DNA from: Nitrosomonas sp.
GTDB lineage: Bacteria > Pseudomonadota > Gammaproteobacteria > Burkholderiales > Nitrosomonadaceae
Assembly: GCA_019635215.1 (NCBI GenBank)
Contig: JAHBZZ010000002.1
Coordinates: 1-64,000 of the forward strand
Length of the DNA: 64,000 nt
Direction of reading: 5' to 3'
Below, in pieces: positions 50,141-63,917 of the stretch (position 1 is its first letter; each line of letters opens with the position of its first letter). Under the pieces are notes generated by a model that was not told the origin of the DNA, did no database searches, and was given only the letters and a program-made list of their open reading frames with translations. Made by a program: the position numbers and the translations under genes.

Positions 50141-50763
50141 TTGGTATTCCGCCGTTGTGCCGGTATATATCGCCTAACTGTTTAGTCCCACGCTCTGCAA
50201 GATAGGTACGCACGCGACCTTCCAGCACAGCAGATAATTCTCCCGACGGGCGAAAAAACGACTGACTCAGCGTAGGACGGTCAGCGCCATTCAAATAGTC
50301 TGCGCCGAAAGTAAACGAAGAAGGACACGAATTAAGGCACCCTCTCACGGGGAATCAGCATGAATGCCTAATCGAGCACGCGTGCGAACCCTTGAAGCTT
50401 ACAATGAATATGTCTTGATCCACCGTACGACACTCGCAACACCCACATCAAATCAATCTGCCACTTCGACTATCGCGAGCCCTTCCCTCTTTCGCACAGA
50501 TCAAACTTTACGCCGATAAGCTAATAAATAAGCCATCTTTTTATGATAGCCATAATTATATGGTTATATGGGTCGTGCCATATCTTATGACTACACTATC
50601 CGGAAACCACCTCACACGCCCATCATAGACGTTCTCTTTCCGTATTGCGCCCGGAAGCACTCTCATATTCAAAAAAGTGATAAACAAATGAAAATTTATT
50701 GGTTCCTCTTATAAGGGTGAACTGATACATTCTCGCTCCACAAAACATCGATTGCTCAACATC
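50141..50763. other. Intergenic region upstream of the sulfur cluster, no gene seen
   Basis: About 620 bases. No coding frame is convincing. Near 50545-50580 an AT-rich partial dyad (AGCCATAATTATATGGTTAT) could be a regulator site; CysB sites are degenerate, so I cannot assign it. The promoter of the YezD-porin-sbp series should be in the right half. Confidence 0.4.
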
Positions 50764-50955
50764 ATGAAATACAGTACGACGCCACAAGATCATCATCCTG
50801 TCTCCCGCAATATCGACCAGGAAGTTCTGCGCGCCATTGCCAGCATTCAATACGGCTCGGTCGAGATCATTATCCATGAGGGGCAGGTTGTACAGATCGA
50901 ATGCCGGGAAAAAATCCGCATCCATTCCGCGAACAATATTCGCAGGATCGAATAA
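50764..50955 (+). CDS. YezD-like DUF2292 small protein
   Basis: The ATG at 50764 (MKYSTTPQDHHPVS) gives 63 residues. The DUF2292/YezD signature is intact: LRAIASIQYGSVEIIIHEGQ followed by VVQIECREKIRI. Members are small, soluble and repeatedly found in sulfate-assimilation or cysteine-regulated operons; biochemical role unknown. Its position at the head of the sulfur cluster matches that pattern. Confidence 0.87.
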   Translation: MKYSTTPQDHHPVSRNIDQEVLRAIASIQYGSVEIIIHEGQVVQIECREKIRIHSANNIRRIE

Positions 50956-51085
50956 TGTACCGCCTTATCGATTTGATCATGATGCAGCAACGATCTCGTA
51001 TTACTTCGACCAGACCACTGGAGAATACAATAAACACGCGACAATGGACTGACCGGAATACCGGAAGAACATTCTGGAGAACGCT

Positions 51086-52687
51086 ATGAAACCTGTCTGG
51101 CGAATCGTTTTGCCTTTGTTGGCGGCAGCACATCTATTGCCTATTGCCGCAGCACAGGCAAATGAACACGCTATATCTTATAACGACAACCCGACATCCG
51201 GGCAATCCACCCTGCTCATCGCTCAAGCCGGCGCAGCAGGCCAGGATACGGACAAATGGGCGACAAAACCTAAGGACCAACCGGCCGCGCAACCCGCACA
51301 ACCGCAAGCGCCGGGGAAAACCACCTATTTTCAACGTGCGCGCAGCTATTCCACACACCCTGAATCCGATCCGCCGCGTTATGTGCGCAATCTGGCCAAG
51401 ACCGACATCGAGGCTTTCAAAAATCTTGACTGGCTCGACGTCGGCCTTGATTACCGCATGCGGTATGAACTGCGCGATGGCGACATACGGCGCAACAGAC
51501 TCATCACTGACAACAACTTCCTGTTACGCACACGCGCTTATATCGGCGTCAGAAACATTGTCGATCCGTTCCGCTTTGCAGTCGAATTCGAGGACGCGCG
51601 CGCCTATAACAGCAGATTCCCCAAAGACAATCGCGACTGGAATGAATTTGAACTGATTCAGACTTATGGCGAACTGTACTTCAAGGATGCTTTGGGAAAA
51701 GACGATCTGGGCAATAACCGCCCGATCCGGATCCGCGGCGGGCGTATGGCTTGGGAAGCCGTGGACAGACGGCTGCTCGGCAACAACCAGTGGCGCAACA
51801 CCACGAATAATTTCGAAGGTTTCAGGGTCACATTCGGGCAGGACGCCAACGACTGGGAACTGGATACCTGGGGAATGCAACCGGTTATCCGCGAGATCGA
51901 TAAATTTGATGAGCGCAACAAAAGCCAATGGTTTTATGGTGCGGTGGGACACTGGCGGAAATGGTCCGATGTCATCACGATACAACCCTATTACATGGGA
52001 TTGATGCAGGATGACAAAGACGGGCAACAGGCCAGCCGGGAAATTCATTCACCCGGTATACGCGCTTACGGTGTATTGCCGAAAACCAATATCGATTTCG
52101 ATCTGGGCGCCATTTATCAATTCGGGCGCGACAACGGCCAGACGAAATCCGCCTGGTCGTACCTGGTCGAATTGGGTTATACCTTCAAGCACGACTGGAA
52201 GCCGCGGCTGAGTGCTTTTTATGGCTTCGTCAGCGGCGACCGCAATCCGAACGACAATGTAAACAATCGCTTCGAACGGTTCTTCGGCTTTGCGCGCCCC
52301 TGGTCGCCCGACGACAATCTGATTATGGAAAACGTCAAAGCGCCCAAAATCGTGTTTGAGTTCTCTCCGCACAAAGATGTTTCGATAGACGGCGGTTACA
52401 GCTGGTTCTGGCTGGCCAGCGACACCGACCGCTTCAATAATCTTATGAACGTTTCCACACCAACCACCCTCAACCGCGATCCGACCGGACAGAGCGGCGA
52501 CTTCCTGGGGCAGTCGATCAACGCCCGCATCAACTACAAGCTGGCGCCACTGGTTGACACCACCGTCGGATACTCGCACTGGATGAACGGTTCGTTTGTA
52601 AAAAACAGGCAGATAGCGGCGCTTGGAGAATCGAATGAAAGCAGTAATTTTTTCTATGTTGAAGTATCCATCAGAGCATTTAAATAA
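51086..52687 (+). CDS. Alginate-export-family outer-membrane porin
   Basis: The product has 533 residues with a signal peptide ([20 protein letters not shown], cleavage near AQA). A low-complexity Pro/Gln linker ([14 protein letters not shown]) follows, then a beta-barrel: [75 protein letters not shown]. The last residues end in an aromatic-type strand ([13 protein letters not shown]), as outer-membrane barrels do. Proximity to sulfate uptake suggests it admits sulfate or organosulfonates through the outer membrane (inference). Confidence 0.87.
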
Positions 52688-52715
52688 ACATTATTACTTG
52701 AGTAAAGGAAAAAAC

Positions 52716-53723
52716 ATGACCACCAAACTATGGCATATATGGCCAAAAATCATTCTGCTGGCAAGCGCATTAGTGATCGGGCCGGAAGCATTCGCTGGAA
52801 AAACATTGCTGAACGTCTCCTATGACCCGACGCGCGAACTCTACCAGGAATTCAATCCTGCCTTTATCAAACACTGGCAAGCGCAAACCGGTGAGAAAAT
52901 CAACATCAGCCAGTCGCATGGCGGTTCCGGAAAACAGGCGCGTTCGGTCATTGACGGGCTGGAAGCCGATGTCGTCACACTCGCCCTGGCTGTCGATATC
53001 GACGCCATCGCCGAACACAGCAGGCAATTGCCGGAGGACTGGCAGGCACGCCTGCCGCAAAACAGCTCGCCCTACACATCCACCATTATTTTTCTGGTGC
53101 GCAAAGGCAATCCGAAAGGCATTAAAGACTGGAACGACCTGGCCAAAGCCGGTGTTTCGGTCATCACGCCCAACCCCAAAACTTCGGGCGGCGCACGCTG
53201 GAATTATCTGGCTGCCTGGGAATTCGGCAAACAACAATTTGGCGAAGACCGGGTGAAAGATTTCATTAAGGATATCTTTAAGAACGTACCGGTACTGGAT
53301 TCCGGCGCGCGTGGCTCGGCTACAACATTCATCGAACGCGGTATCGGCGACGTATTGATTTCATGGGAAAACGAAGCGTTTCTGGCGCTCAAGGAATACG
53401 GTCAGGAAAAATTTGAAATCGTGATCCCCTCATTCAGCGTTCTGGCCGAACCCGCCGTCGCCCTGGTCGACAGGGTAGTGGACAAAAAAGGCACACGTAA
53501 GATTGCCGAAGCCTATCTCCAATATCTTTATTCGGATGAAGGACAGGAAATCGCCGCCCGGCATTTCTACCGGCCAACCAATGAAAAGATCGCCGCAAAA
53601 TTCACCCAGCAGTTTCCGGCCATCAAATTGTTCAAAGTCGATGACGCCTTCGGCAGCTGGAAAAATGCGCAAAAAGTGCATTTTGACGATGGCGGCACAT
53701 TCGACCAGATTTACCTGAAGTAA
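52716..53723 (+). CDS. sbp: Periplasmic sulfate-binding protein
   Basis: The ATG at 52716 with AAAGGAA gives 335 residues and a signal peptide ([17 protein letters not shown]). Family motifs are [40 protein letters not shown] (the sulfate-binding SHGGSG), [35 protein letters not shown], and [18 protein letters not shown]. It delivers sulfate or thiosulfate to CysTWA. A strong hairpin just after the stop probably protects the mRNA and raises the level of this protein over the permease. Confidence 0.95.
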
Positions 53724-53730
53724 CCATGAC

Positions 53731-53757
53731 GGGAGGTGCTGTTAGGCAGCGCCTCCC
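53731..53757 (+). terminator. Intercistronic stem-loop after sbp
   Basis: GGGAGGTGCTG pairs with CAGCGCCTCCC over 11 positions (one G-U) around a 5-base loop, 7 bases after the sbp stop. There is no T-run, so it is more likely an mRNA-stabilising or partial-termination hairpin, as is common behind binding-protein genes. Confidence 0.75.
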
Positions 53758-53788
53758 GCAAATCAAACAGCAATGTAAGGAAAAAAAC

Positions 53789-54100
53789 ATGCAGGCATTA
53801 ATTGTTGGCGGAGACCGGATCGAGTCCGTCAAACGTCAGATCCTTGCGCAGGGATACGACCATATCGAACACTGGAGCGGCCGTAAAAAAGGATTTCTCA
53901 ACCGTTCATTGTCCAGCCGCACACGGCTGATCGTCCTGATGTACGATTATGTCAATCACAGTCTAGCCATCACACTGAAAAGCAAGGCGCATCGCCAGGG
54001 TATCCCGGTGGTTTATTGCCGCCATTCGGCACATGAACTCAGGGACAAATTATCCAACCGGAAAGAAACCGATGCCTGTTGTTACTGCTACAGCTTTTAA
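53789..54100 (+). CDS. DUF2325 family protein
   Basis: The ATG at 53789 with AAGGA gives 103 residues. DUF2325 begins with a Rossmann-like strand and loop (MQALIVGGDRIESVKRQILA), continues with HIEHWSGRKKG and the family phrase LIVLMYDYVNHSLAITLKSK, then IPVVYCRHSAHELRDKL. A cysteine cluster ends it (DACCYCYSF). Members often sit near metal or sulfur genes; the double and single cysteines at the C-terminus could bind metal or be redox-active. Function unknown. Confidence 0.85.
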   Translation: MQALIVGGDRIESVKRQILAQGYDHIEHWSGRKKGFLNRSLSSRTRLIVLMYDYVNHSLAITLKSKAHRQGIPVVYCRHSAHELRDKLSNRKETDACCYCYSF

Positions 54101-54276
54101 GCAACGCCACACAGAAACGGCATACGGATAGCCGGATTCCGGCAAATGGTCAATGATTGAGCAACCATGATGAACAATTCAATGAACGGCTCAAATCCGG
54201 AAACCGCCCAATGTACGCTGATCAGGCAATAGCACGTATCACACATATTAATACTTTGGTTAACAGGAGTCTTTCC

Positions 54277-55152
54277 ATGAATTCAAGCGCGACCCAATCG
54301 TTTGTCATCAAAGATGAATTTGAACTGATCCGATCCGCCACCGATTTTTCACTGGAACGCGCCGAGGATGGCTGGATCAGCGGACACTATTTCCGTTGCA
54401 AACTGACCAGCGCTTTTCAGCCGGTTTTCAGTATTACCCGGAATACAACCATCGGGCATGCAGCCTATATCCGTTCCCAGATAAACGACGAGATCGCGCT
54501 TTGGCCCTGGCAGGTTTTTTCCCAAGCATCCACAGATGCGCAATTGGTGGAGCTGGATCGTTTATGCCGCGCAGTTCATGCATTGAATTATTTCAAGACC
54601 GTATCGGATTCGGAACAGCTTTTTCTGGTCGTGCATCCGCGACTTCTGGGAAGCGTCAAGACTGATCATGGACGCACATTCGAAAATTTTCTCGACTTGA
54701 TTGGCGTGCGCACATCCCGGGTAACCATCGAAATACCGCCTATCGTCAATCGGGATCCGGTTCTGTTGTATCAGGTTATCAACAATTACCGCGCGCGCAG
54801 TTATCAGGTGGCGGCAAATTACACACCCACCGGAACACCCGGTTCATTCAGTTCCGTTAATTGGCTGACCAGGGCCGAAAGCTTGACGCCGGACATCGTG
54901 CGCATCGACGCGGATGAATTATTCCGCGACAGTGGCGCTGACACCTTTGCCGAAAACGCCATACGCGCCGGTTTGCGGTTGCTGGTATGGAATATCGACA
55001 CCCCGCGCCAGCTTGCCGCCGCCAGAGACATCGGCGCGGACTATCTGCAGGGCAATTATCTCGGGTCGCCTGTACGCGCTGCTTCAGCCGTATCGCCGCA
55101 ACTGGTCCGGGAAACCCTGCAGGCGGAAACCGCAAGAAAAACAAGCCCATGA
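54277..55152 (+). CDS. Degenerate EAL-domain protein in the sulfur cluster
   Basis: The ATG at 54277 follows ACAGGAG at 7 bases; product 291 residues. The EAL fold is recognisable: LTSAFQPVFSITRNTTIGHA (start), LVEELDR-like LVELDRLCRAVHAL, RVTIEIPPIVNRDPVLLYQV and ADYLQGNYLGSPV (end). The catalytic E-x-L-x-R is replaced (GHAAYIRSQ), and the first metal ligands of active phosphodiesterases are missing. It therefore probably binds c-di-GMP or another ligand without hydrolysing it. Its stop overlaps the cysT start (ATGA), tying it to sulfate permease expression. Confidence 0.85.
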   Translation: MNSSATQSFVIKDEFELIRSATDFSLERAEDGWISGHYFRCKLTSAFQPVFSITRNTTIGHAAYIRSQINDEIALWPWQVFSQASTDAQLVELDRLCRAVHALNYFKTVSDSEQLFLVVHPRLLGSVKTDHGRTFENFLDLIGVRTSRVTIEIPPIVNRDPVLLYQVINNYRARSYQVAANYTPTGTPGSFSSVNWLTRAESLTPDIVRIDADELFRDSGADTFAENAIRAGLRLLVWNIDTPRQLAAARDIGADYLQGNYLGSPVRAASAVSPQLVRETLQAETARKTSP

Positions 55153-56015
55153 CAGAAACAAACGCAAAAGGAGCCTATAACTTGAGCCTATTCAAACAGC
55201 ACAGTGTATTACCGGGATTTAACCTGGCGCTGGGATTTACCCTATTTTATCTGAGCCTGATTGTTCTGATTCCTCTCTCGGCCGCATTTTTCCGCACCAC
55301 CGAACTGACCTGGGCGGAATTCTGGACAACAGTTACAACACCGCGCGTCATGGCTTCCTATCAACTGACGTTCGGCGCCTCGCTTGCAGCGGCATTAACC
55401 AACGCGGTATTCGGGTTACTGGTAGCCTGGGTGCTGGTACGCTATCAATTTACCGGCAAACGGATAGTCGATGCGCTGATCGATCTGCCATTCGCCCTGC
55501 CCACCGCTGTGGCGGGCATTGCCTTGACAGCGCTCTACGCCGGAAACGGCTGGATCGGGCAATTTCTCGAACCGTTCGGGATCAAGGTTGCCTTTACACC
55601 CATCGGCATCTATGTCGCATTGACTTTTATCGGTCTGCCGTTTGTCGTGCGCACAGTACAACCCGTGCTCGAAGATATCGAAACCGAACTGGAAGAAGCG
55701 GCCGCGATGCTGGGTGCCAACCGGTTGCAGACCTTCCTCAGGATTATTTTTCCGGCCATCTTTCCGGCACTGACAACGGGTTTTGCGCTCGCATTTGCAC
55801 GCGCTATCGGCGAATATGGTTCAGTCATCTTCATCGCCGGCAACATGCCGATGGTTTCGGAAATCACCCCACTGCTGATCATCACCAAGCTGGAGCAGTA
55901 TGATTACGCCGGAGCCACGGCCATCGCCGTCGTCATGCTGGTCATTTCGTTCGTGCTGTTATTGATTATCAATCTGCTGCAATGGTGGAGCCGCCACCGC
56001 AACGCACTCGCATAA
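55149..56015 (+). CDS. cysT: Sulfate ABC transporter permease CysT (CysU)
   Basis: The ATG at 55149 overlaps the EAL stop; a TTG at about 55182 with AGGAG upstream is an alternative start. The product has 288 residues and about six helices. The permease signature is [20 protein letters not shown] followed by [20 protein letters not shown] (EAA loop). Other marks are [20 protein letters not shown] and [20 protein letters not shown]. It pairs with CysW to form the sulfate/thiosulfate channel. Confidence 0.94.
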
Positions 56016-56025
56016 GGAATCTGTA

Positions 56026-56895
56026 ATGACAACGACAACGATCTCATATCCTGACAAGGTGCGGCGAACGTCCATTACCCAGGAACCGGCCTGGGTGCGC
56101 TGGACGCTGATTGGCCTGGCGCTCGCATTTCTGACACTGTTTCTGTTCGTTCCTTTGGTTTCCGTATTCTACGAAGGACTCAAAAAAGGAACCGATGTTT
56201 ATTTTGCCGCAATTACCGAACCCGACGCACGCGCAGCGATCCGGCTCACTTTGATCGCGGCAGCCATTGCGGTGCCGCTCAACCTGATATTCGGCGTTGC
56301 GGCGGCCTGGGCCATTGCGAAATTTGAATTCCGCGGCAAAAACATTCTGACCACGCTGATCGATCTGCCATTCTCGGTTTCCCCTGTCATTGCCGGATTG
56401 ATCTATGTACTCGTATTCGGATTGCAGGGCTGGCTGGGGCCGTGGCTTGCCGAACACGATATCAAAATCATCTTCGCGGTACCCGGCATCGTGCTGGCGA
56501 CGGTTTTTGTCACCGTGCCGTTTATCGCACGCGAACTCATTCCGCTGATGCAGGCACAGGGCACCGAGGAAGAAGAGGCGGCCGTGATACTCGGTGCAAA
56601 CGGCTGGCAGACCTTCTGGCGCGTCACGCTGCCCAATATCAAATGGGGCCTGCTATACGGCGTCATCCTCTGCAATGCGCGGGCCATGGGCGAATTCGGC
56701 GCGGTCAGCGTCGTCTCCGGCCACATCCGCGGGCAGACCAACACACTGCCGCTGCACGTCGAGATTCTTTATAACGAATACAGCTACGCCGCCTCTTTTG
56801 CGGTCGCATCGCTCCTGGCGCTGCTTGCGCTGATCACGCTCGCCATTAAAACGTTTGTAGAGTCCAAAGTCACACAACAAAAAGTAAAAGGATAA
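56026..56895 (+). CDS. cysW: Sulfate ABC transporter permease CysW
   Basis: The product has 289 residues. CysW features are [60 protein letters not shown] (EAA loop), and [20 protein letters not shown] followed by [14 protein letters not shown]. It is the second membrane subunit of the transporter and starts 10 bases after cysT. Confidence 0.95.
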
Positions 56896-56910
56896 ATAAG
56901 GAAAATTATC

Positions 56911-57993
56911 ATGAGCATAGAGATACGCCACCTTTCCAAGCAATTCGGCACATTTACGGCATTACACGACGTCAATCTGGAGGTTCAATCCGGCGAACTG
57001 CTCGCCCTGCTGGGCCCCTCCGGTTCCGGAAAAACCACGCTGCTACGCGTGATCGCAGGTCTCGAAACGGCCGATTCGGGGCAGGTACTGTTCAACAACG
57101 AAGACACCGCCAACCAGCATATCCGTGACCGGCAGGTCGGTTTTGTCTTCCAGCATTATGCGCTGTTCCGCAATATGACTATTTTCGAGAATGTCGCATT
57201 TGGTCTGCGCGTCCGTCCGAAACATAATCGCCTGCCAGACGCGGAAATCCGCGAGCGTGTCACCAGCCTGCTGAAACTCGTGCAGCTGGATTGGCTGGCA
57301 GACCGCTATCCGCACCAGCTATCCGGCGGACAGCGTCAGCGTATCGCACTGGCGCGCGCCCTCGCAGTGGAGCCCAAGGTATTACTGCTGGACGAACCGT
57401 TTGGCGCACTCGATGCCAAAGTGCGCAAGGAGTTACGCATCTGGCTGCGCAGACTGCATGATGACATGCATATCACCAGCGTTTTTGTCACGCACGATCA
57501 GGAGGAAGCACTGGAAGTTTCCGACCGGGTCGTTGTGATGAACGAAGGACGGATCGAACAAATCGGGACGCCCGATGAAGTCTATGAACGCCCCGCCAAT
57601 CCATTCGTATATGAATTTCTCGGCCATGTGAATCTGTTTCACGGGCGTATCCATCACGGACGCGCCATCATCAGCGATATCGAAATTGAAGCGCCTGAAC
57701 ATGCCGAGGCTGAAAATGTAGCTGCAATTGCTTATGTGAGGCCGCATGATATCGAAATTGACCGTGTGACGAATGGTGAATCGGCACTGACAGCGCACAT
57801 TGTGCATATTGTTTCCGTCGGCCCGGTCGTCAGACTGGAACTGTCGCACGACGACAGCATCAACAAAAATCTCGTCCAGGTCGAGATCAGCAAAGACCGT
57901 TTTCGTGAATTGCAGTTGATCAAGGGCGACCAGGTTTACATTAAGCCACGCAGGATGGAATTGTTTCCAAGTCATGGCAGTTCGATTCATTGA
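56911..57993 (+). CDS. cysA: Sulfate ABC transporter ATPase CysA
   Basis: The product has 360 residues. The nucleotide-binding domain has Walker [10 protein letters not shown] (about 33-41), the Q-loop [20 protein letters not shown], signature [15 protein letters not shown], Walker [13 protein letters not shown] and the H-loop [16 protein letters not shown]-terminal regulatory beta domain ([20 protein letters not shown]) follows. It drives sulfate or thiosulfate import with CysT and CysW. The gene order sbp...cysT-cysW-cysA is standard. Confidence 0.96.
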
Positions 57994-58010
57994 TAACGTT
58001 TTTTTAAGAC

Positions 58011-58931
58011 ATGACATTTCCCGATTTAAAAAAAACCGGCTCAACGATCAGTACCATCGTTGCCGAGTTACGTACATTGCGGTTGGCCTCTCTGGAGCAT
58101 CGCCAGCGGCTGAATAATCCGCCAAAACTGCCCGCACGCAAAACGCTGGCACATATCGTCGACCGTCTGAGTGCCGCATTATTTCCCAATCGCCTAGGTA
58201 TCCCCGATCTGACCGACGAGAGTATAGATTTTTTTGTGGGACACACGCTGGATACAGCGCTGCGGGATTTAACCATCGAAGTACAGCGGGAACTTCACTT
58301 TGTTTCAGGACTGGAAACAAGCAGCAGCACCGTTGGTGCACAGGCCGCCAGGATAATTGCCGCATTCGCCATACGACTTCCTGATATCCGGGTCATATTG
58401 GAAAGCGATATCCGTGCCGCCTATCAGGGCGATCCGGCCGCACGCAGTATTGATGAAGTGCTGGTCTGTTATCCTGGAATAACAGCGATTACCCATTATC
58501 GCCTGGCGCATGAATTGCATCGGCTGGAAGTACCTTTGATTGCGCGCATGATTTCTGAAATTGCCCATTCGCTGACCGGCATAGAAATTCATCCCGGTGC
58601 ACAGATTGGCGAAAGCTTTTTTATCGATCATGGCACCGGCGTTGTCATCGGCGAGACGGCCGTCATTGGCCGGAATGTACGGCTGTATCAGGCTGTAACC
58701 CTTGGCGCCAAAAGCTTCCCGGTCGACGAACAAGGGACATTGGTGAAAGGTAATTTACGCCATCCTGTTGTCGAAGATGATGTTGTGATCTACGCCGGCG
58801 CAACCATTCTCGGACGTATCACGATCGGACAGGGATCGACCATCGGGGGCAATGTCTGGCTAACACACAGCATTCCGCCGAACAGCCGCATTGCACAAGC
58901 ACAGACACATCATGAAAAAAACGGCACATAA
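58011..58931 (+). CDS. Serine O-acetyltransferase, EpsC/long form
   Basis: The product has 306 residues, longer than enterobacterial CysE. The helical N-terminal half includes RIIAAFAIRLPDIRVILESD, IRAAYQGDPAARSIDEV and ITHYRLAHELHRLEVPLIAR. The C-terminal half is a left-handed beta-helix: IEIHPGAQIGESFFIDHGTG, VVIGETAVIGRNVRLYQAVT, LGAKSFPVDEQG, VVEDDVVIYAGATILGRITI. The catalytic His and the serine-binding segment are present (FIDHGTGVVIGETA). It makes O-acetylserine, the carbon skeleton for cysteine. It follows cysA by 17 bases. Confidence 0.93.
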   Translation: MTFPDLKKTGSTISTIVAELRTLRLASLEHRQRLNNPPKLPARKTLAHIVDRLSAALFPNRLGIPDLTDESIDFFVGHTLDTALRDLTIEVQRELHFVSGLETSSSTVGAQAARIIAAFAIRLPDIRVILESDIRAAYQGDPAARSIDEVLVCYPGITAITHYRLAHELHRLEVPLIARMISEIAHSLTGIEIHPGAQIGESFFIDHGTGVVIGETAVIGRNVRLYQAVTLGAKSFPVDEQGTLVKGNLRHPVVEDDVVIYAGATILGRITIGQGSTIGGNVWLTHSIPPNSRIAQAQTHHEKNGT

Positions 58932-59038
58932 CACAGTTCTATATATTTTATTCATATATATATATAACTAAAAACTATATATAATTTTTTTGTCTCATTA
59001 GAGTACATTTATTATTGATTACTTCCAGGAGAGTTAAA
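58932..59038 (+). promoter_or_regulatory. AT-rich spacer with weak A/T hairpin before the encapsulin gene
   Basis: Two ATATATATA tracts (58952-58980 region) flank AACTAAAAAC and are followed by ATTTTTTT. They can pair as an all-A/U stem ahead of a T-run, which could act as a weak terminator of the upstream operon. The A/T richness could equally be a promoter for the shell and cargo genes. The AGGAGAG ribosome site follows at 59026-59032. Confidence 0.45.
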
Positions 59039-59956
59039 ATGACCGATATCCATCAAGCACACACCGCACTCGGCGATGTAGCAGCCCGCACGCTGTCCAA
59101 TGCAACAAAAACCATCCCGATGATGGGAACGATCACGCCGCGATGGCTGACCCATTTGTTACAGTGGGTGCCCGTCGAGGCCGGTATTTACCGTGTCAAT
59201 AAAGTGAAGGATCCGGATCGGGTGACCGTCGATTGCTCGGCCAAGGACGAGCGCGAACTGCCGGCGACCTATGTCGATTATGAAGAATGGGGACGGGAAT
59301 ACGTGCTCAGCGCTGTTAATACTGTGCTGGATGTACATGTGCGCGTGGCCGACCTTTACAGCAGTCCGCACGATCAGACACGCGAACAGCTCCGTTTAAC
59401 GATCGAAACAGTCAAAGAGCGTCAGGAAAGCGAACTGATCAACAACAAAGAATACGGTTTGCTGAATAATGCCGGCAAAAACATGAAAATAAAAACACGC
59501 GCAGGCGCGCCGACACCGGATGATCTGGACGAGTTGATCTCACTGGTCTGGAAGGAACCCGGCTTCTTTCTGGCGCATCCCAAGGCCATAGCGGCCTTTG
59601 GGCGTGAATGCACAAGACGCGGTGTACCGCCTCCAACCGTATCGCTGTTCGGTTCACAATTTCTCACCTGGCGTGGACTGCCACTCGTACCTTGTGACAA
59701 ATTGGGGATTAACGGCGGCAAAACGAATATTCTGCTGCTTCGCACCGGAGAAAACCGCCAGGGCGTGGTCGGTCTTTACCAACCCGGATTGCAGGGTGAA
59801 CAAGGTATGGGCTTGTCCGTACGCTTCATGGGCATCAATCATAAAGCGATTGCTTCCTACCTGGTTTCTCTCTACTGTTCGCTGGCCGTATTGACGGAAG
59901 ATGCGCTGGGCGTACTCGAGAATGTCGATGTAGGTAAATATCATGAATACAAATAA
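59039..59956 (+). CDS. srpI: Family 2A encapsulin shell protein (SrpI-like)
   Basis: The ATG at 59039 with AGGAGAG gives 305 residues, the SrpI size. The HK97-fold shell family is clear: RTLSNATKTIPMMGTITPRW, LTHLLQWVPVEAGIYRVNK, YVDYEEWGREYVLSAVNTVL, KERQESELINNKEYGLLNNA, and GQGMGLSVRF-like LQGEQGMGLSVRFMGINHKA. Family 2A encapsulins assemble into roughly 24-nm shells in the cytoplasm that package a cysteine desulfurase. The cargo gene follows with a 14-base overlap, a strong sign of coupled synthesis. Upstream is serine acetyltransferase and sulfate import. Confidence 0.95.
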   Translation: MTDIHQAHTALGDVAARTLSNATKTIPMMGTITPRWLTHLLQWVPVEAGIYRVNKVKDPDRVTVDCSAKDERELPATYVDYEEWGREYVLSAVNTVLDVHVRVADLYSSPHDQTREQLRLTIETVKERQESELINNKEYGLLNNAGKNMKIKTRAGAPTPDDLDELISLVWKEPGFFLAHPKAIAAFGRECTRRGVPPPTVSLFGSQFLTWRGLPLVPCDKLGINGGKTNILLLRTGENRQGVVGLYQPGLQGEQGMGLSVRFMGINHKAIASYLVSLYCSLAVLTEDALGVLENVDVGKYHEYK

Positions 59957-61598
59957 TTTCAATCGGCTGATGGCGGAGAGTATCGAGCAGATGGCCCGCT
60001 ATCCGCTGGATACCGGAACGCTGACACACCTGGAAAACGAACTGTTGAACACGGCACCACATGCAGCTGAAACAACTTCCGCACCGTCTCAGATGCTGCA
60101 ATCCACCGGTTCGACGGTTCCCCGACCCAATGCGGATTATCCATCTGATCCTGCACAGGGTATCTATTACGCATCGGCAGCGCCAATACCGCAAGTGGAA
60201 AACTTGGATCTATTTCTTGCGCCGGGCGTAAATACCATCCCTTCGGATTTTGGCGGAAAAGAATTCAATGCTTTAATTCAGCCGATCCGGGAGCCCTCAT
60301 TTTATTTTCTGGATGAAGTTGCCGCACCTGGCCGCAGTGATCAGATACCGCAAATCACTTCCCAGCATGCCGCCTTCGATGTGCATGCCATCCGGCGTGA
60401 TTTCCCGATTCTGCAGGAACAGGTCAATGGGCGCTCGCTGGTCTGGCTGGATAATGCAGCGACAACCCAGAAGCCCCAGGCTGTGATTGATCGCCTTGCC
60501 TATTTCTACCAGCACGAAAATTCCAATATCCATCGCGCAGCCCATGAATTAGCCGCACGCGCTACCGATGCTTATGAGGAATCACGTGAAATAGTCCGCC
60601 GCTTCATCAATGCGCCGTCAGTAGAAGAGATCGTTTTCGTCCGTGGTACAACCGAGGGTATTAATCTTGTCGCACAAAGCTGGGGGCGGCAAAACATCGG
60701 TGAAGGCGATGAAATCGTGATTACCTGGTTGGAACATCACGCCAATATCGTCCCCTGGCAGATGTTGTGCAGCGAGCGCGGCGCAACATTACGGATAGCT
60801 CCGGTAGACGATAACGGCCAGATTTTACTGGAAGAGTACCAGAAGCTGCTCAATTCAAATACCAAACTGGTTGCATTTTCACAAGTGTCCAACGCATTAG
60901 GCACAGTCACGCCTGCCCGGCAGATCGTGGAAATAGCGCACCGTGCCGGCGCACGCGTACTGGTCGATGGTGCGCAGTCCGTTTCGCATATGCACGTGGA
61001 TGTCCAGCAGTTGGGCTGTGACTGGTTTGTGTTCTCGGGTCATAAAATATTCGGCCCGACCGGCATCGGTGTTGTATTCGGCAAGGCTGACCTGCTCGAA
61101 ACCATGCCGCCCTGGCAAGGGGGAGGCAACATGATCCAGGATGTGACTTTCGAGAAAACGTCTTATCATGGTGCGCCTGCCCGCTTTGAAGCTGGAACGG
61201 GTAATATCGCGGATGCTGTGGGACTGGGTGCTGCGATTGATTATGTGGAACGTATCGGGATCGATAATATCAACCGCTACGAACATGATCTGATGGTTTA
61301 TGCGACGCACGGCCTGAATTCAATAAATGGTCTGCGGCTCATCGGCACGGCATCCGAGAAGGCCGGTGTGCTTTCTTTTGTTTTAAAGGGACTGGCCTCT
61401 GAAGAAGTCGGTGAAGCACTGAACCGGGAAGGGATTGCCGTCCGCTCCGGGCATCATTGCGCACAACCCATCCTGCGCCGCTTTGGCGTTGAAACGACAG
61501 TTCGTCCATCGCTCGCGTTTTACAACACCTATGCGGATGTTGACCGATTAATTGCGGTATTGAATCGTATCGAAGGCGGCCGTCGCCATCTCTTTTAA
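59943..61598 (+). CDS. Encapsulated cysteine desulfurase cargo (SufS-type, long N-terminal extension)
   Basis: The product has 551 residues. The first about 140 are disordered and Pro/Ala/Ser-rich, with short hydrophobic islands (VENLDLFLAPG at 86-96, SFYFLDE at 119-125) that are likely shell-targeting motifs. The SufS/group II desulfurase follows from about 145: VWLDNAATTQKPQAVIDRL, HENSNIHRAAHELAARATDA, LEHHANIVPWQML, the PLP lysine K368 in FSGHKIFGP, and the active cysteine C506 in VRSGHHCAQPILRRFG. It removes sulfur from cysteine to give alanine and a persulfide, inside the shell. ORF overlap with the encapsulin supports their pairing. Confidence 0.95.
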   Translation: MNTNNFNRLMAESIEQMARYPLDTGTLTHLENELLNTAPHAAETTSAPSQMLQSTGSTVPRPNADYPSDPAQGIYYASAAPIPQVENLDLFLAPGVNTIPSDFGGKEFNALIQPIREPSFYFLDEVAAPGRSDQIPQITSQHAAFDVHAIRRDFPILQEQVNGRSLVWLDNAATTQKPQAVIDRLAYFYQHENSNIHRAAHELAARATDAYEESREIVRRFINAPSVEEIVFVRGTTEGINLVAQSWGRQNIGEGDEIVITWLEHHANIVPWQMLCSERGATLRIAPVDDNGQILLEEYQKLLNSNTKLVAFSQVSNALGTVTPARQIVEIAHRAGARVLVDGAQSVSHMHVDVQQLGCDWFVFSGHKIFGPTGIGVVFGKADLLETMPPWQGGGNMIQDVTFEKTSYHGAPARFEAGTGNIADAVGLGAAIDYVERIGIDNINRYEHDLMVYATHGLNSINGLRLIGTASEKAGVLSFVLKGLASEEVGEALNREGIAVRSGHHCAQPILRRFGVETTVRPSLAFYNTYADVDRLIAVLNRIEGGRRHLF

Positions 61599-61605
61599 AA
61601 ATGAT

Positions 61606-61647
61606 TGCAGTGCAGCGGATAGATCTGAAGCGATCCGTTACACTGCA
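61606..61647 (+). terminator. Stem-loop after the desulfurase gene
   Basis: TGCAGTGCAGCGGAT pairs with ATCCGTTACACTGCA with two non-Watson-Crick positions, leaving a 12-base loop. It starts 8 bases after the stop. There is no long T-run, but the strong stem between the cargo gene and the regulator gene is consistent with termination or mRNA stabilisation. Confidence 0.6.
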
Positions 61648-61694
61648 CTTCAAATGAATCGATGTTTATTAATCCATAGAACACCATATAAAAA

Positions 61695-62615
61695 GTGAAT
61701 TTCCAGCAATTACGCATTATCAGTGAAACCGTTCGCCAACGTTATAACCTGACGAAAGTCGCCAATGCCTTGTTTACCTCGCAATCCGGTGTCAGCAAAC
61801 ACATCAAGGATCTGGAAGACGAACTGGGTATTGAGTTATTTATCCGCAAAGGCAAACGCTTTACCGGATTAACCGCGCCCGGCAAGCAACTGGTCAGAGT
61901 CGTCGAACGCGTTTTGCTGGACGCGAATAACCTCAAACGCATGGCGGAGGAATTCAGCCAGCACGATCAGGGTGAATTGACGATCGTCACGACCCACACA
62001 CAAGCGCAATATGCCTTGCCACCCGTTGTAGCACAGTTTAAAAAGGAATTTTCCAAAGTACATCTGGTACTGCATCAGTCCAGCCCCGGTGAAATTGTTT
62101 CAATGCTGCTTGATGATCAGGCCGATATCGGCATTGCAACAGAAGCGCTTGGCGATGTGGATAACCTGATCTCTTTTCCTTACTACTCGTGGCATCATTC
62201 GATCATCGTACCACCTGGTCACGCCTTGCTTTCCAAGCAGCCGCTGACGCTTGAAGAAATCGCGCAATTCCCAATCATTACTTATCACCAGGGGTTCACC
62301 GGCAGGTCGAAAATTGACCAGGTTTTTACCAGCGCCGGTCTCACACCCGACATCGCCATGTCGGCGCTGGATGCAGATGTAATTAAAACTTACGTCAAGC
62401 TCGGCCTGGGCATTGGCATTATCGCATCGGTAGCTTTTATCCCGGAGCAGGATTCTTCCCTGATCATGCTTTCCGGAGAACATTTATTCGAAAAAAACAC
62501 AACCATTATCGCCATCCGCCGCAACCATTTTCTGCGCAGCTATGCTTACCGGTTCATGGAGCTTTGTGTACCGTCACTCAGTGAGCAGGCTATCCGCTCC
62601 GCGGCGCATCTCTAG
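61695..62615 (+). CDS. cysB: CysB-like LysR-family regulator
   Basis: A GTG start at 61695 gives 306 residues. The CysB N-terminus is unmistakable: NFQQLRIISETVRQRYNLTK, VANALFTSQSGVSKHIKDLE, ELGIELFIRKGKRFTGLTAP. The effector domain has TTHTQAQYALPPVVAQFKKE, VLHQSSPGEIVSMLLDDQAD and FTGRSKIDQVFTSAGL. CysB senses N-acetylserine (made from O-acetylserine) and activates sulfate-uptake and cysteine genes. Located at the end of the sulfur cluster, it is the obvious candidate to control the permease, epsC and encapsulin units. Confidence 0.94.
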   Translation: MNFQQLRIISETVRQRYNLTKVANALFTSQSGVSKHIKDLEDELGIELFIRKGKRFTGLTAPGKQLVRVVERVLLDANNLKRMAEEFSQHDQGELTIVTTHTQAQYALPPVVAQFKKEFSKVHLVLHQSSPGEIVSMLLDDQADIGIATEALGDVDNLISFPYYSWHHSIIVPPGHALLSKQPLTLEEIAQFPIITYHQGFTGRSKIDQVFTSAGLTPDIAMSALDADVIKTYVKLGLGIGIIASVAFIPEQDSSLIMLSGEHLFEKNTTIIAIRRNHFLRSYAYRFMELCVPSLSEQAIRSAAHL

Positions 62616-62642: not shown

Positions 62643-62998
62643 TAGAACCTGTTCAAGATGTTACTGAAAGGCGCATTGCTGCGTTAAAATTGATCATTTA
62701 CGCCTGCCGCCGTCGAACAGGTTGGAAGCCTTAACACATGACCGCAAAGGACAATGGCGTATTCGCATCAACGATCAATGGCGCATATGTTTCCGTTTTG
62801 AAAATGGCGATGCATTTGACGTTGAAATCGTCGGACTAAACACCTAACAATGGACGTATTGCTTCAAATTGTTCCCATGTCCAATCACCCAGATAAACAC
62901 TATCTTTTTCCGGCATGATCCAATACCACAAATAAATCAGTCTAATCACAGGAACAGCAGATCTTTTTTATGATTTTTTTGATCTTGAACAGGTTCTA
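62643..62998. mobile_element. 356-bp element with perfect 17-bp terminal inverted repeats
   Basis: The left end TAGAACCTGTTCAAGAT (62643-62659) is the exact complement of the right end (62982-62998). On the minus strand, 62916-62836 is a 26-codon frame (starts MPEKDSVYLGDW, contains WEQFEAIRPLL) that resembles the opening of an IS transposase. The interior also carries a HigB fragment. It is probably a deletion derivative of an insertion sequence. Confidence 0.75.
62704..62847 (+). pseudogene. HigB-type toxin, C-terminal remnant
   Basis: The plus-strand frame reads LPPSNRLEALTHDRKGQWRI, then RINDQWRICFRFENGDAFDV and EIVGLNT, ending in TAA. This is the C-terminal half of the HigB/RelE-like killer family, including the catalytic-side phrase INDQWRICFRF. 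The N-terminal half and the HigA antitoxin are missing, so it is inactive. It lies inside the inverted-repeat-bounded element. Confidence 0.75.
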
Positions 62999-63140: not shown

Positions 63141-63917
63141 ATGTCCTCTGACATTTGCATCTGGTGCCTTCAACATGCCAATGGAAAGGATGAGGAACAC
63201 ATCATTCCCGAAGCACTTGGTTGCCCGCCGGGTTTCGTTCTTCCTGGCACAGTCGTGTGTAGGAAGTGTAATAACGGGCTTGCAAACCTTGATAGTGCCG
63301 TGATTGATGAATTCGACTTTCGAGCGTTTATGGCTGGCGTGCCAAAAAAGAAGGGGCGCCCACCAGCCATTCGCAGTCGAGGAAACGTGGTAGGCACAAT
63401 CGAGAAAGATGGCTCAGCAATTTCCTTCAACATGGACCCGGTACCCGTCACGGCTCATGATGGTTCGTATCTAGCTCCTTACCGTGGATCAACGCGCGAC
63501 GTTCGTGCTAAGTTCACAAGGGACGGAGACACCGCAAGAATTAGTTTCGATATTCCATTCGGACAGAATCGAAAGTTCTTGCGCGGTATCACCAAGATCG
63601 CGTTTTCATCCTTAGCATACTTCTTAGGCGCACCGCTTGCTCGAAGCCCTGCATTCTCGTCGGTTCGCCGTTTCGTTAAACATGGCGCTGGCAATCGCCA
63701 CGTGTTGCTTACATCAAGCAACGATAATTGTTATTCCAATAGCGTATGGCCGCCATACATTTCTCCTTCTGGAGATTACGCTGTTACTTTCAGGCTAACG
63801 TCCGTTGAGTTCCTGGTCGACTTAAGCGAGGAAGAATCGTTCATTAGGATGCTCCAAGCGAAAGCCCCCAGATTTCTTGGAGATAAGAATTGGTGCACTT
63901 TACCCATCAAGGCCTAA
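63141..63917 (+). CDS. HNH-motif protein of unknown role
   Basis: The product has 258 residues. The N-terminal 55 hold an HNH-type zinc site: CIWCLQHA, then DEEHIIPEALGCPPGF, and VVCRKCNNGLANLDSAVIDE. This Cys-x2-Cys, EHIIP, Cys-x2-Cys-Asn arrangement is common to HNH_5-like nucleases and some defence proteins. The remaining 200 residues are beta-rich and unassigned (ARISFDIPFGQNRKFLRGIT). It stands alone between a mobile element and its own terminator, suggesting transfer. A defence or restriction role is possible, but unproven. Confidence 0.8.
   Translation: MSSDICIWCLQHANGKDEEHIIPEALGCPPGFVLPGTVVCRKCNNGLANLDSAVIDEFDFRAFMAGVPKKKGRPPAIRSRGNVVGTIEKDGSAISFNMDPVPVTAHDGSYLAPYRGSTRDVRAKFTRDGDTARISFDIPFGQNRKFLRGITKIAFSSLAYFLGAPLARSPAFSSVRRFVKHGAGNRHVLLTSSNDNCYSNSVWPPYISPSGDYAVTFRLTSVEFLVDLSEEESFIRMLQAKAPRFLGDKNWCTLPIKA

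Follow-up and report, generated by a model that had tools for sequence, protein, structure and literature searches.

Why should the shell and cargo genes of an encapsulin lie directly behind those of a sulfate importer, and do the two belong to one system? This question is raised by a cluster of twelve genes, all on the + strand, at positions 50764-62615 of a 64,000-nucleotide stretch of DNA (referred to as the window), i.e., positions 1 to 64,000 of contig JAHBZZ010000002.1 (also named C12) of the Nitrosomonas sp. assembly GCA_019635215.1, a genome of 3.39 Mb in 46 contigs. The genes were assigned from the list of open reading frames (ORFs) using Pfam and curated profile models, and their order is YezD/DUF2292, an Alginate_exp porin, sbp, DUF2325, an EAL-domain gene, cysT, cysW, cysA, epsC, the shell, the cargo and a CysB-family lysR gene. 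All genes named in an earlier note on this DNA are present on the + strand in the order that it gave, with shell and cargo behind sbp-cysTWA-epsC and ahead of a CysB-like gene. The cluster is composed of two layers, i.e., a sulfate importer operon that is also found without encapsulin, and an added set of epsC, shell and cargo. We interpret it, with a probability of about 0.62, as a sulfur-starvation operon with its own supply of O-acetylserine (OAS), feeding an encapsulated desulfurase.

An importer operon with an added encapsulin set

The two layers are seen when loci with and without encapsulin are compared across the Nitrosomonadaceae. The family survey covered 101 genomes that are at least 90% complete, with counts of EpsC and EAL proteins taken from a sample of 61 genomes. 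Encapsulin is distributed patchily, being found in 24 of the 101 genomes, in one of them (G030) as a remnant only. It lies beside importer genes at 15 loci, i.e., in the window, G328, G292, eleven further Nitrosomonas and G009, where the first fourteen are all same-genus genomes with encapsulin in the survey (G029, which is less than 90% complete, is outside the 15; its short locus L084 comprises sbp, EAL, shell and cargo). These were set against 26 encapsulin-free loci, chosen for having an EAL or DUF2325 gene out of 77 encapsulin-free genomes; 21 of the 26 had at least 1.5 kb readable after cysA, and five were too short.

The 26 encapsulin-free loci share the core (YezD)-porin-sbp-(DUF2325)-EAL-cysT-cysW-cysA, with YezD or DUF2325 undetected in some; the G290 locus is short and internally duplicated, and no porin was seen in it. 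The porin, which was absent from the gene list of the earlier note, is flanked by YezD and sbp in most of the family loci read. An epsC gene is found in the operon at 13 of the 15 encapsulin loci as compared with none of the 21 encapsulin-free loci readable beyond cysA. Shell and cargo share the strand of sbp and EAL at all 15 loci, and are positioned in the EAL/cysT interval in 11, behind epsC in three (the window, G328 and G292) and in a cysTWA-free locus in one (G009). In these 11 loci, where they reside inside the operon, co-transcription with the importer is likely.

The co-directional sulfur cluster with shell, cargo and serine acetyltransferase that the earlier note described recurs in G328 and G292. 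In G328 all 12 genes are found in the same order and on the same strand (shell 96% identical), and in G292 11 of the 12 follow the window order, with YezD undetected and the EAL gene doubled. That the window order might be unique is thus ruled out by G328 and, YezD apart, by G292. A methanotroph bin (locus L082) also displays cysA-epsC-shell-cargo, with a 41-bp gap between cysA and epsC.

A wider survey addressed the best 80 of at least 578 encapsulin loci, which are close relatives, mostly from Nitrosomonas, Methylophilaceae and methanotrophs, and in which gene calls rest on identity thresholds set by us, within the fetched flanks. The 80 include several of the 15 loci as well as several records from the 61- and 101-genome sets, so that the counts are not independent. 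Cargo is found in 75 of these 80 loci, epsC in 70, sbp in 57, cysT in 53 and any sulfate ATP-binding cassette (ABC) gene in 65; for the 40 loci uncut by contig ends the numbers are 40 (cargo), 36 (epsC) and 34 (sulfate ABC gene). Among twelve marker genes, epsC is the nearest ahead of the shell in 63 of the 80 (in 59 the cargo follows, and four end there). The importer is variable in orientation: cysA is divergent from epsC-shell in 24 loci, and co-directional upstream of epsC-shell-cargo in 11.

These data bear on an explanation by neighbourhood only, i.e., an often-rearranged encapsulin set near sulfur genes, with merely generic sulfur control as a shared function. The variable positions of the set would agree with it (inside the operon, behind epsC, in the cysTWA-free G009 locus, and separate from the importer in genus g3, identified as Nitrosospira/Nitrosovibrio by upstream sequence identical to that of the named loci L018 and L036), as would the patchy occurrence in 24/101 genomes and the stop-bearing shell remnant in G030. 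However, a sulfate ABC gene in 65 of the 80 encapsulin loci compares with about 1% expected by chance (20 kb in a 3-Mb genome, our own estimate), and we consider this explanation highly improbable.

The G030 remnant (L101, at G030:C17:74481-74681) is what is left of a g3 shell gene and carries an internal stop, which points to a loss of encapsulin there.

Gene assignments

The twelve genes and the basis of their assignment are as follows.

50764..50955, + strand: YezD/DUF2292 small protein, OscA-like (PF10055 1.9e-15; OscA model NF033785 46.1 bits, cut-off 85)
51086..52687, + strand: Alginate_exp-type outer-membrane porin (PF13372 6.5e-103)
52713..53723, + strand: sbp sulfate-binding protein, start approximate (NF008022 511.9 bits, cut-off 288)
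53789..54100, + strand: DUF2325 small alpha/beta protein, ends approximate (PF10087 1.2e-11)
54157..55152, + strand: degenerate EAL-domain protein (PF00563 6.4e-15; EAL fold by AlphaFold2 and Foldseek)
55140..56015, + strand: cysT sulfate permease, start approximate, overlapping the end of the EAL gene (PF00528 1.7e-20; counterparts 84-93% identical)
56026..56895, + strand: cysW sulfate permease (position, and counterparts 81-95% identical)
56911..57993, + strand: cysA sulfate ATPase (TIGR00968 395.3 bits, cut-off 342.75)
58011..58931, + strand: EpsC-type serine O-acetyltransferase, one of two genome copies (NF041874 171.8, cut-off 150)
59039..59956, + strand: family 2A (SrpI-like) encapsulin shell, start approximate (PF19307 1.6e-105; NF041162 523.1, cut-off 380)
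59943..61598, + strand: cargo cysteine desulfurase (NF041166 891.6, cut-off 800)
61695..62615, + strand: CysB-family LysR regulator (NF009327 440.6, cut-off 402)

Some products fall below the cut-offs of more specific models: the YezD protein misses the OscA model and is a DUF2292/YezD relative, not OscA; CysA is under the CysA equivalog cut-off (427.4 vs 502); the LysR protein is under those of both CysB (367 vs 436) and Cbl (411.3 vs 491); and the window EpsC is under that of CysE (173.5 vs 210.65). Just behind the cluster, at 62740-62844, lies a fragment that resembles HigB-like toxins of toxin-antitoxin systems (PF05015 8.9e-05, below cut-off), and further on, at 63141-63917, an HNH-like protein (PF14279, marginally under cut-off).

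Shell and cargo

The shell scores 352.2 with PF19307 (cut-off 22.8), and its best solved relative is SrpI (6x8m, 1.5e-147). It also passes the family 2B model, more weakly (421.5, cut-off 400); the cyclic-nucleotide-binding domain that marks 2B is not in the shell, for which Pfam gives PF19307 only. By these matches the shell is assigned to the family 2A (SrpI) encapsulins and the adjoining desulfurase, whose gene overlaps that of the shell by 14 nt, is assigned as its cargo, and it is by homology that the terms "encapsulated" and "compartment" would apply to the window system. Trees bearing on a possible horizontal arrival of the cassette group the window shell with three loci (support 0.735) and the cargo with L011 (0.943), inside the Nitrosomonadaceae, i.e., with low to moderate support.

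The cargo carries an N-terminal extension of about 140 residues, and its segments LTHLENELLNTAP and REPSFYFLDE resemble the two targeting-region motifs published by Nichols et al., with LTHLENELL from residue 27 and PSFYFL from residue 118 corresponding to LARLANEFFS-like and AASPYYFLDG-like motifs, respectively. Loose patterns of our own making for these motifs match 56 and 58 of 73 cargoes, including that of the window. The pyridoxal phosphate (PLP) lysine (SGHK) and the catalytic cysteine (RSGHHC) are retained in the window cargo; patterns for them are found in 73/73 and 63/73 cargoes, respectively, where the latter pattern is restricted to R followed by S or T.

The cargo is SufS-like (TIGR01979 573.5, cut-off 475.1), which is one of the points in favor of delivery of sulfur as opposed to its storage: encapsulation would limit the breakdown of cysteine, and persulfide would be passed across the shell to a specific acceptor that serves the synthesis of Fe-S clusters or thio-cofactors in starvation. 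Such delivery is proposed in PMC8049743, and a rhodanese acceptor in PMC8346489. However, there is no rhodanese or SufE among the twelve genes (acceptors were not searched for in relatives or in the rest of the genome), and delivery seems to us unlikely. Storage is favored because it has been claimed in print, by the title of Benisch 2024 (a sulfur-storing compartment).

A second serine acetyltransferase

The earlier note had expected the operon to correlate with a missing cysE. This expectation is contradicted by a second EpsC, 72% identical, on contig C44 of the same genome, which rules out that the operon copy replaces a missing cysE. Two EpsC copies (E 1e-40 or better) are found in 11 of 19 encapsulin-bearing genomes and in none of 42 others, and in all 11 two-copy genomes one of the copies is at most 5 kb from the shell. 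The operon EpsC goes with the shell, and is added on top of a housekeeping copy. Because cysTWA parts epsC from shell-cargo in 9 of the 13 epsC-bearing loci, their co-presence is more than adjacency.

The co-occurrence of EpsC with shell and cargo, together with the CysB-family gene that follows the cargo in the window, G328 and G292, would also suit a regulatory role. N-acetylserine is the inducer of CysB, and cysteine feedback-inhibits serine acetyltransferase (SAT). In such a scheme, OAS from the second EpsC would drive the CysB-type regulator and the shell would remove cysteine, i.e., the inhibitor, such that the operon stays on. However, two encapsulin-bearing loci are without operon EpsC, and the encapsulin-free G045, G333 and G289 have the same LysR-type gene after cysA, at 218, 52 and 55 bp (measured from alignment ends), with no EpsC. 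We give this scheme little probability. In the longer g3 loci L018, L036 and L201 the order is shell, then cargo, then a LysR gene.

By gene content, the cluster appears to cover import, acceptor (OAS) and exit (desulfuration). It does not hold the "full route" from external sulfate that had been proposed: two PF01507 genes (cysD-/cysH-like) are located about 240 kb from the cluster on the same contig, near ORFs that read as cysN and sulfite reductase (by ORF reading alone), and cysK is on C34. Another CysB-like gene, 48% identical, is also found about 240 kb from the cluster on the same contig.

Degenerate EAL protein, DUF2325 and YezD

The EAL gene adjoins sbp, DUF2325 or cysT in all 30 fetched family loci (L102-L131). 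It is present in 37 of the 61 sampled genomes, 19 with and 18 without encapsulin, and the other 24, all encapsulin-free, are without it. YezD, DUF2325 and EAL, which the earlier note had counted with the encapsulin, are indeed in the cluster, but they are parts of the importer operon that also occur in encapsulin-free genomes, and a set specific to encapsulin is therefore ruled out. Gene neighborhoods place both the EAL protein and DUF2325 with the importer rather than with the shell.

The EAL fold of the window protein is confirmed by an AlphaFold2 model (mean predicted local distance difference test, pLDDT, 79) that matches EAL domains in the PDB (E ~1e-12; template-modeling score at most 0.72 by target length). 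Eight residues, which we take to be the catalytic and metal-binding ones of EAL domains, were placed on it via alignments: two are left (E192 and Q298) and six are lost, in line with the degeneracy noted earlier. In the window copy, the former DDFG loop carries a 7-residue insert. None of the 10 Nitrosomonadaceae alignment rows has the EAL glutamate or either aspartate, and the second aspartate is missing from 23/23 other rows (about 30% identical, mostly Methylophilaceae), most of which keep the rest except the AEG glutamate. The protein probably serves as a sensor or adaptor without catalytic activity. Two neighboring EAL copies are present in G039, G292, G333 and G289. Relatives are found across the class in 25 of 229 genomes at 1e-30, with sbp or cysT adjacent in 4 of the 28 loci fetched, each about 3.7 kb long (the window, L167, L168 and L172).

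Two further loci are mentioned here for their EAL genes. In Nitrosomonas sp. Nm84 a second, more degenerate EAL-like protein is encoded after cysA (L015, 15528-16448; PF00563 4.6e-06, below cut-off), and in the encapsulin-free Nitrosomonas G290 (L236, on C43) DUF2325-EAL is tandemly duplicated, with sbp and YezD.

DUF2325 is predicted to adopt a small alpha/beta fold (AlphaFold2 pLDDT 77), a model for which a fold search of the PDB gave no match at E 0.001; the invariant residues are G7 G8 D9, H28 W29, G31 R32 and H57. The gene is found in 21 of 24 encapsulin-bearing vs 21 of 77 other genomes (p 1.8e-7, a value inflated by linkage and relatedness). In g3, where it is unlinked to encapsulin, the numbers are 7 of 9 encapsulin-bearing vs 4 of 13 others (p 0.04; these 22 genomes belong to the 61-genome sample). 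Most of the association is explicable by linkage and relatedness. For the encapsulin systems of anammox bacteria, a figure legend in PMC6934571 suggests that DUF2325 may be a secondary cargo. A speculative and rather improbable reading is that, in Nitrosomonadaceae and Methylophilaceae, the dead EAL protein with its DUF2325 partner couples sulfate import to a second messenger or metabolite, and that, in genomes with the encapsulin set, the same signal also sets how much of the imported sulfur is parked in the shells; under this reading DUF2325 would be a compartment accessory (acceptor or secondary cargo), because it is commoner in encapsulin-bearing genomes, also where unlinked in Nitrosospira.

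A probable sulfur-starvation operon feeding an encapsulated desulfurase

From the genes and their families, the shared direction, the presence/absence pattern and the extra EpsC, all of them observed, we infer a single sulfur-responsive programme that would include loading of the cargo, flow from EpsC to the shell and storage of sulfur. A sulfate-scavenging operon, probably under CysB-type control, would have gained the three-gene set of epsC, shell and cargo. During sulfur limitation, the porin, Sbp and CysTWA would increase sulfate uptake, and the extra EpsC would form OAS, i.e., the carbon acceptor for sulfide and, via N-acetylserine, an inducer of CysB-type regulators. Cysteine made by the CysK encoded elsewhere would enter the shell, where the N-terminally tethered desulfurase would remove its sulfur, which may remain in the shell as persulfide, polysulfide or elemental sulfur and serve as a buffer.

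Three intergenic regions bear on how the cluster is expressed.

50670..50732, + strand: probable regulatory or promoter region ahead of YezD (alignment of 12 upstream regions, by eye)
58932..59038, + strand: AT-rich gap with a candidate promoter for the shell itself (60-mer of 10% GC, guanine plus cytosine)
61599..61694, + strand: gap between cargo and lysR with a hairpin (arms TGCAGTG/CACTGCA, by eye)

The most conserved stretch ahead of YezD, in the window and 11 loci compared by eye, is an AT-rich block directly before a TGnTA-like -10. The 60-mer of 10% GC ahead of the shell is equaled or undercut by one other of the 63,940 60-mers of the window; no sigma-70-like match was found in this gap, and a similar gap is found in G328, not in G292. 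Shells inserted in the importer operon have no such AT-rich element (11 loci, by eye). The element is clear in four of the eight distinct intact g3 shells (L090, L092, L093 and L094), partial in three (L098-L100) and missing from L097. These data would suit read-through into the inserted shells and, for some others, an AT-rich promoter of their own. The gaps from YezD to cargo contain no terminator-like match on the + strand; one such match, at 61575-61587, overlaps the end of the cargo gene. As judged by eye, the gap behind the cargo gene also has a hairpin at the same place in G328 and G292, with differing sequences. The window as a whole contains 5 sigma-70-like promoters (14.7 expected) and 23 terminator-like matches (14.5 expected), mostly inside genes, and no described RNA element at gathering scores.

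A number of observations weigh against a single starvation operon with an encapsulated desulfurase. Release of sulfur from cysteine under starvation is a paradox, and shell and cargo knockouts in Synechococcus (S.) elongatus displayed no growth defect, starved or not, according to PMC8049743. The encapsulin must be dispensable, since 77 of the 101 family genomes are without it. As to regulation, no CysB site was identified in the upstream regions, and the AT-rich block, which in several relatives forms a good inverted repeat (TTATATAGAAAT...ATTTCTATTTATATAA), is a weak one in the window; the shell, with its own AT-rich gap, may be regulated separately, and lysR may form a separate unit because of the hairpin in the gap between cargo and lysR. 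The role of EpsC is questioned by its absence from the operons of the encapsulin-bearing G035 and G027, by g3, where the link is weaker (two EpsC copies in only 3 of the 9 genomes with encapsulin) and where neither epsC nor shell is found in the importer operons of G034, G036 and G054, and by the statistics of two EpsC copies vs encapsulin (Fisher 1.8e-7), which are uncorrected for relatedness.

A sulfur-supply or sulfur-storage role of the shell is testable in this group, where one operon has epsC, shell and cargo in some related Nitrosomonas species and lacks them in others, which offers a natural comparison for the role of family 2A. From the addition of a second serine acetyltransferase we argue that the shell and an extra supply of OAS or cysteine go together. 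The conserved dead EAL protein in a sulfate importer operon, in turn, is a putative link between signaling and sulfur uptake.

Relation to known systems

The sulfate importer of S. elongatus is, presumably, encoded away from its encapsulin, SrpI/CyD (PDB 6x8m, 6x8t). The window system shares with SrpI/CyD the shell family, a desulfurase cargo with an N-terminal targeting region and two types of motif, and a neighborhood of sulfur metabolism. PMC8049743 describes the S. elongatus PCC 7942 family 2A homologue as induced by sulfate starvation, its desulfurase as about sevenfold more active once encapsulated, and SrpI/CyD as plasmid-borne among many sulfur-related genes, whereas the genes of the window lie in an importer operon with EAL, DUF2325 and YezD. 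In PMC8346489, SAT and rhodanese are the most enriched accessory genes of family 2A desulfurase operons (1281 operons counted), and the serine O-acetyltransferase partner is the same as that in the window. The link to SAT (PMC8346489) and starvation induction together with encapsulation (PMC8049743) are thus already published, as the earlier note had said of family 2A encapsulins with desulfurase cargo and of the induction of several of them by sulfur starvation.

In the open-licence literature, we found no published shell inside a sulfate importer operon, where the supplementary neighborhood table of Nichols may list sulfate transporter genes, and no published degenerate EAL protein as a fixed part of an importer operon. 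The oscA-sbp unit of Pseudomonas corrugata 28 (Viti 2009, as described in PMC2996968 and PMC3596284) has in common with the window a small-protein gene ahead of sbp, a sulfate ABC cluster and a link to sulfur starvation, and differs in that the YezD protein of the window reaches 46 bits on the OscA model, for which the cut-off is 85. The EAL fold is common to the window protein and the solved domains of YkuI (2bas, 2w27), FimX (4f3h) and others; in contrast to these, the window protein has lost six of eight catalytic residues, and its gene is fixed beside sbp/cysT. As compared with the family 2A operons of PMC8346489, as far as its accessible part describes them, the window adds integration with sbp...cysTWA, the presence/absence pattern and the EAL/DUF2325 neighbors. 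Within the literature searched, the additions are the integration into an importer operon, the presence or absence of the set as a whole, and a catalytically dead EAL protein encoded among the importer genes.

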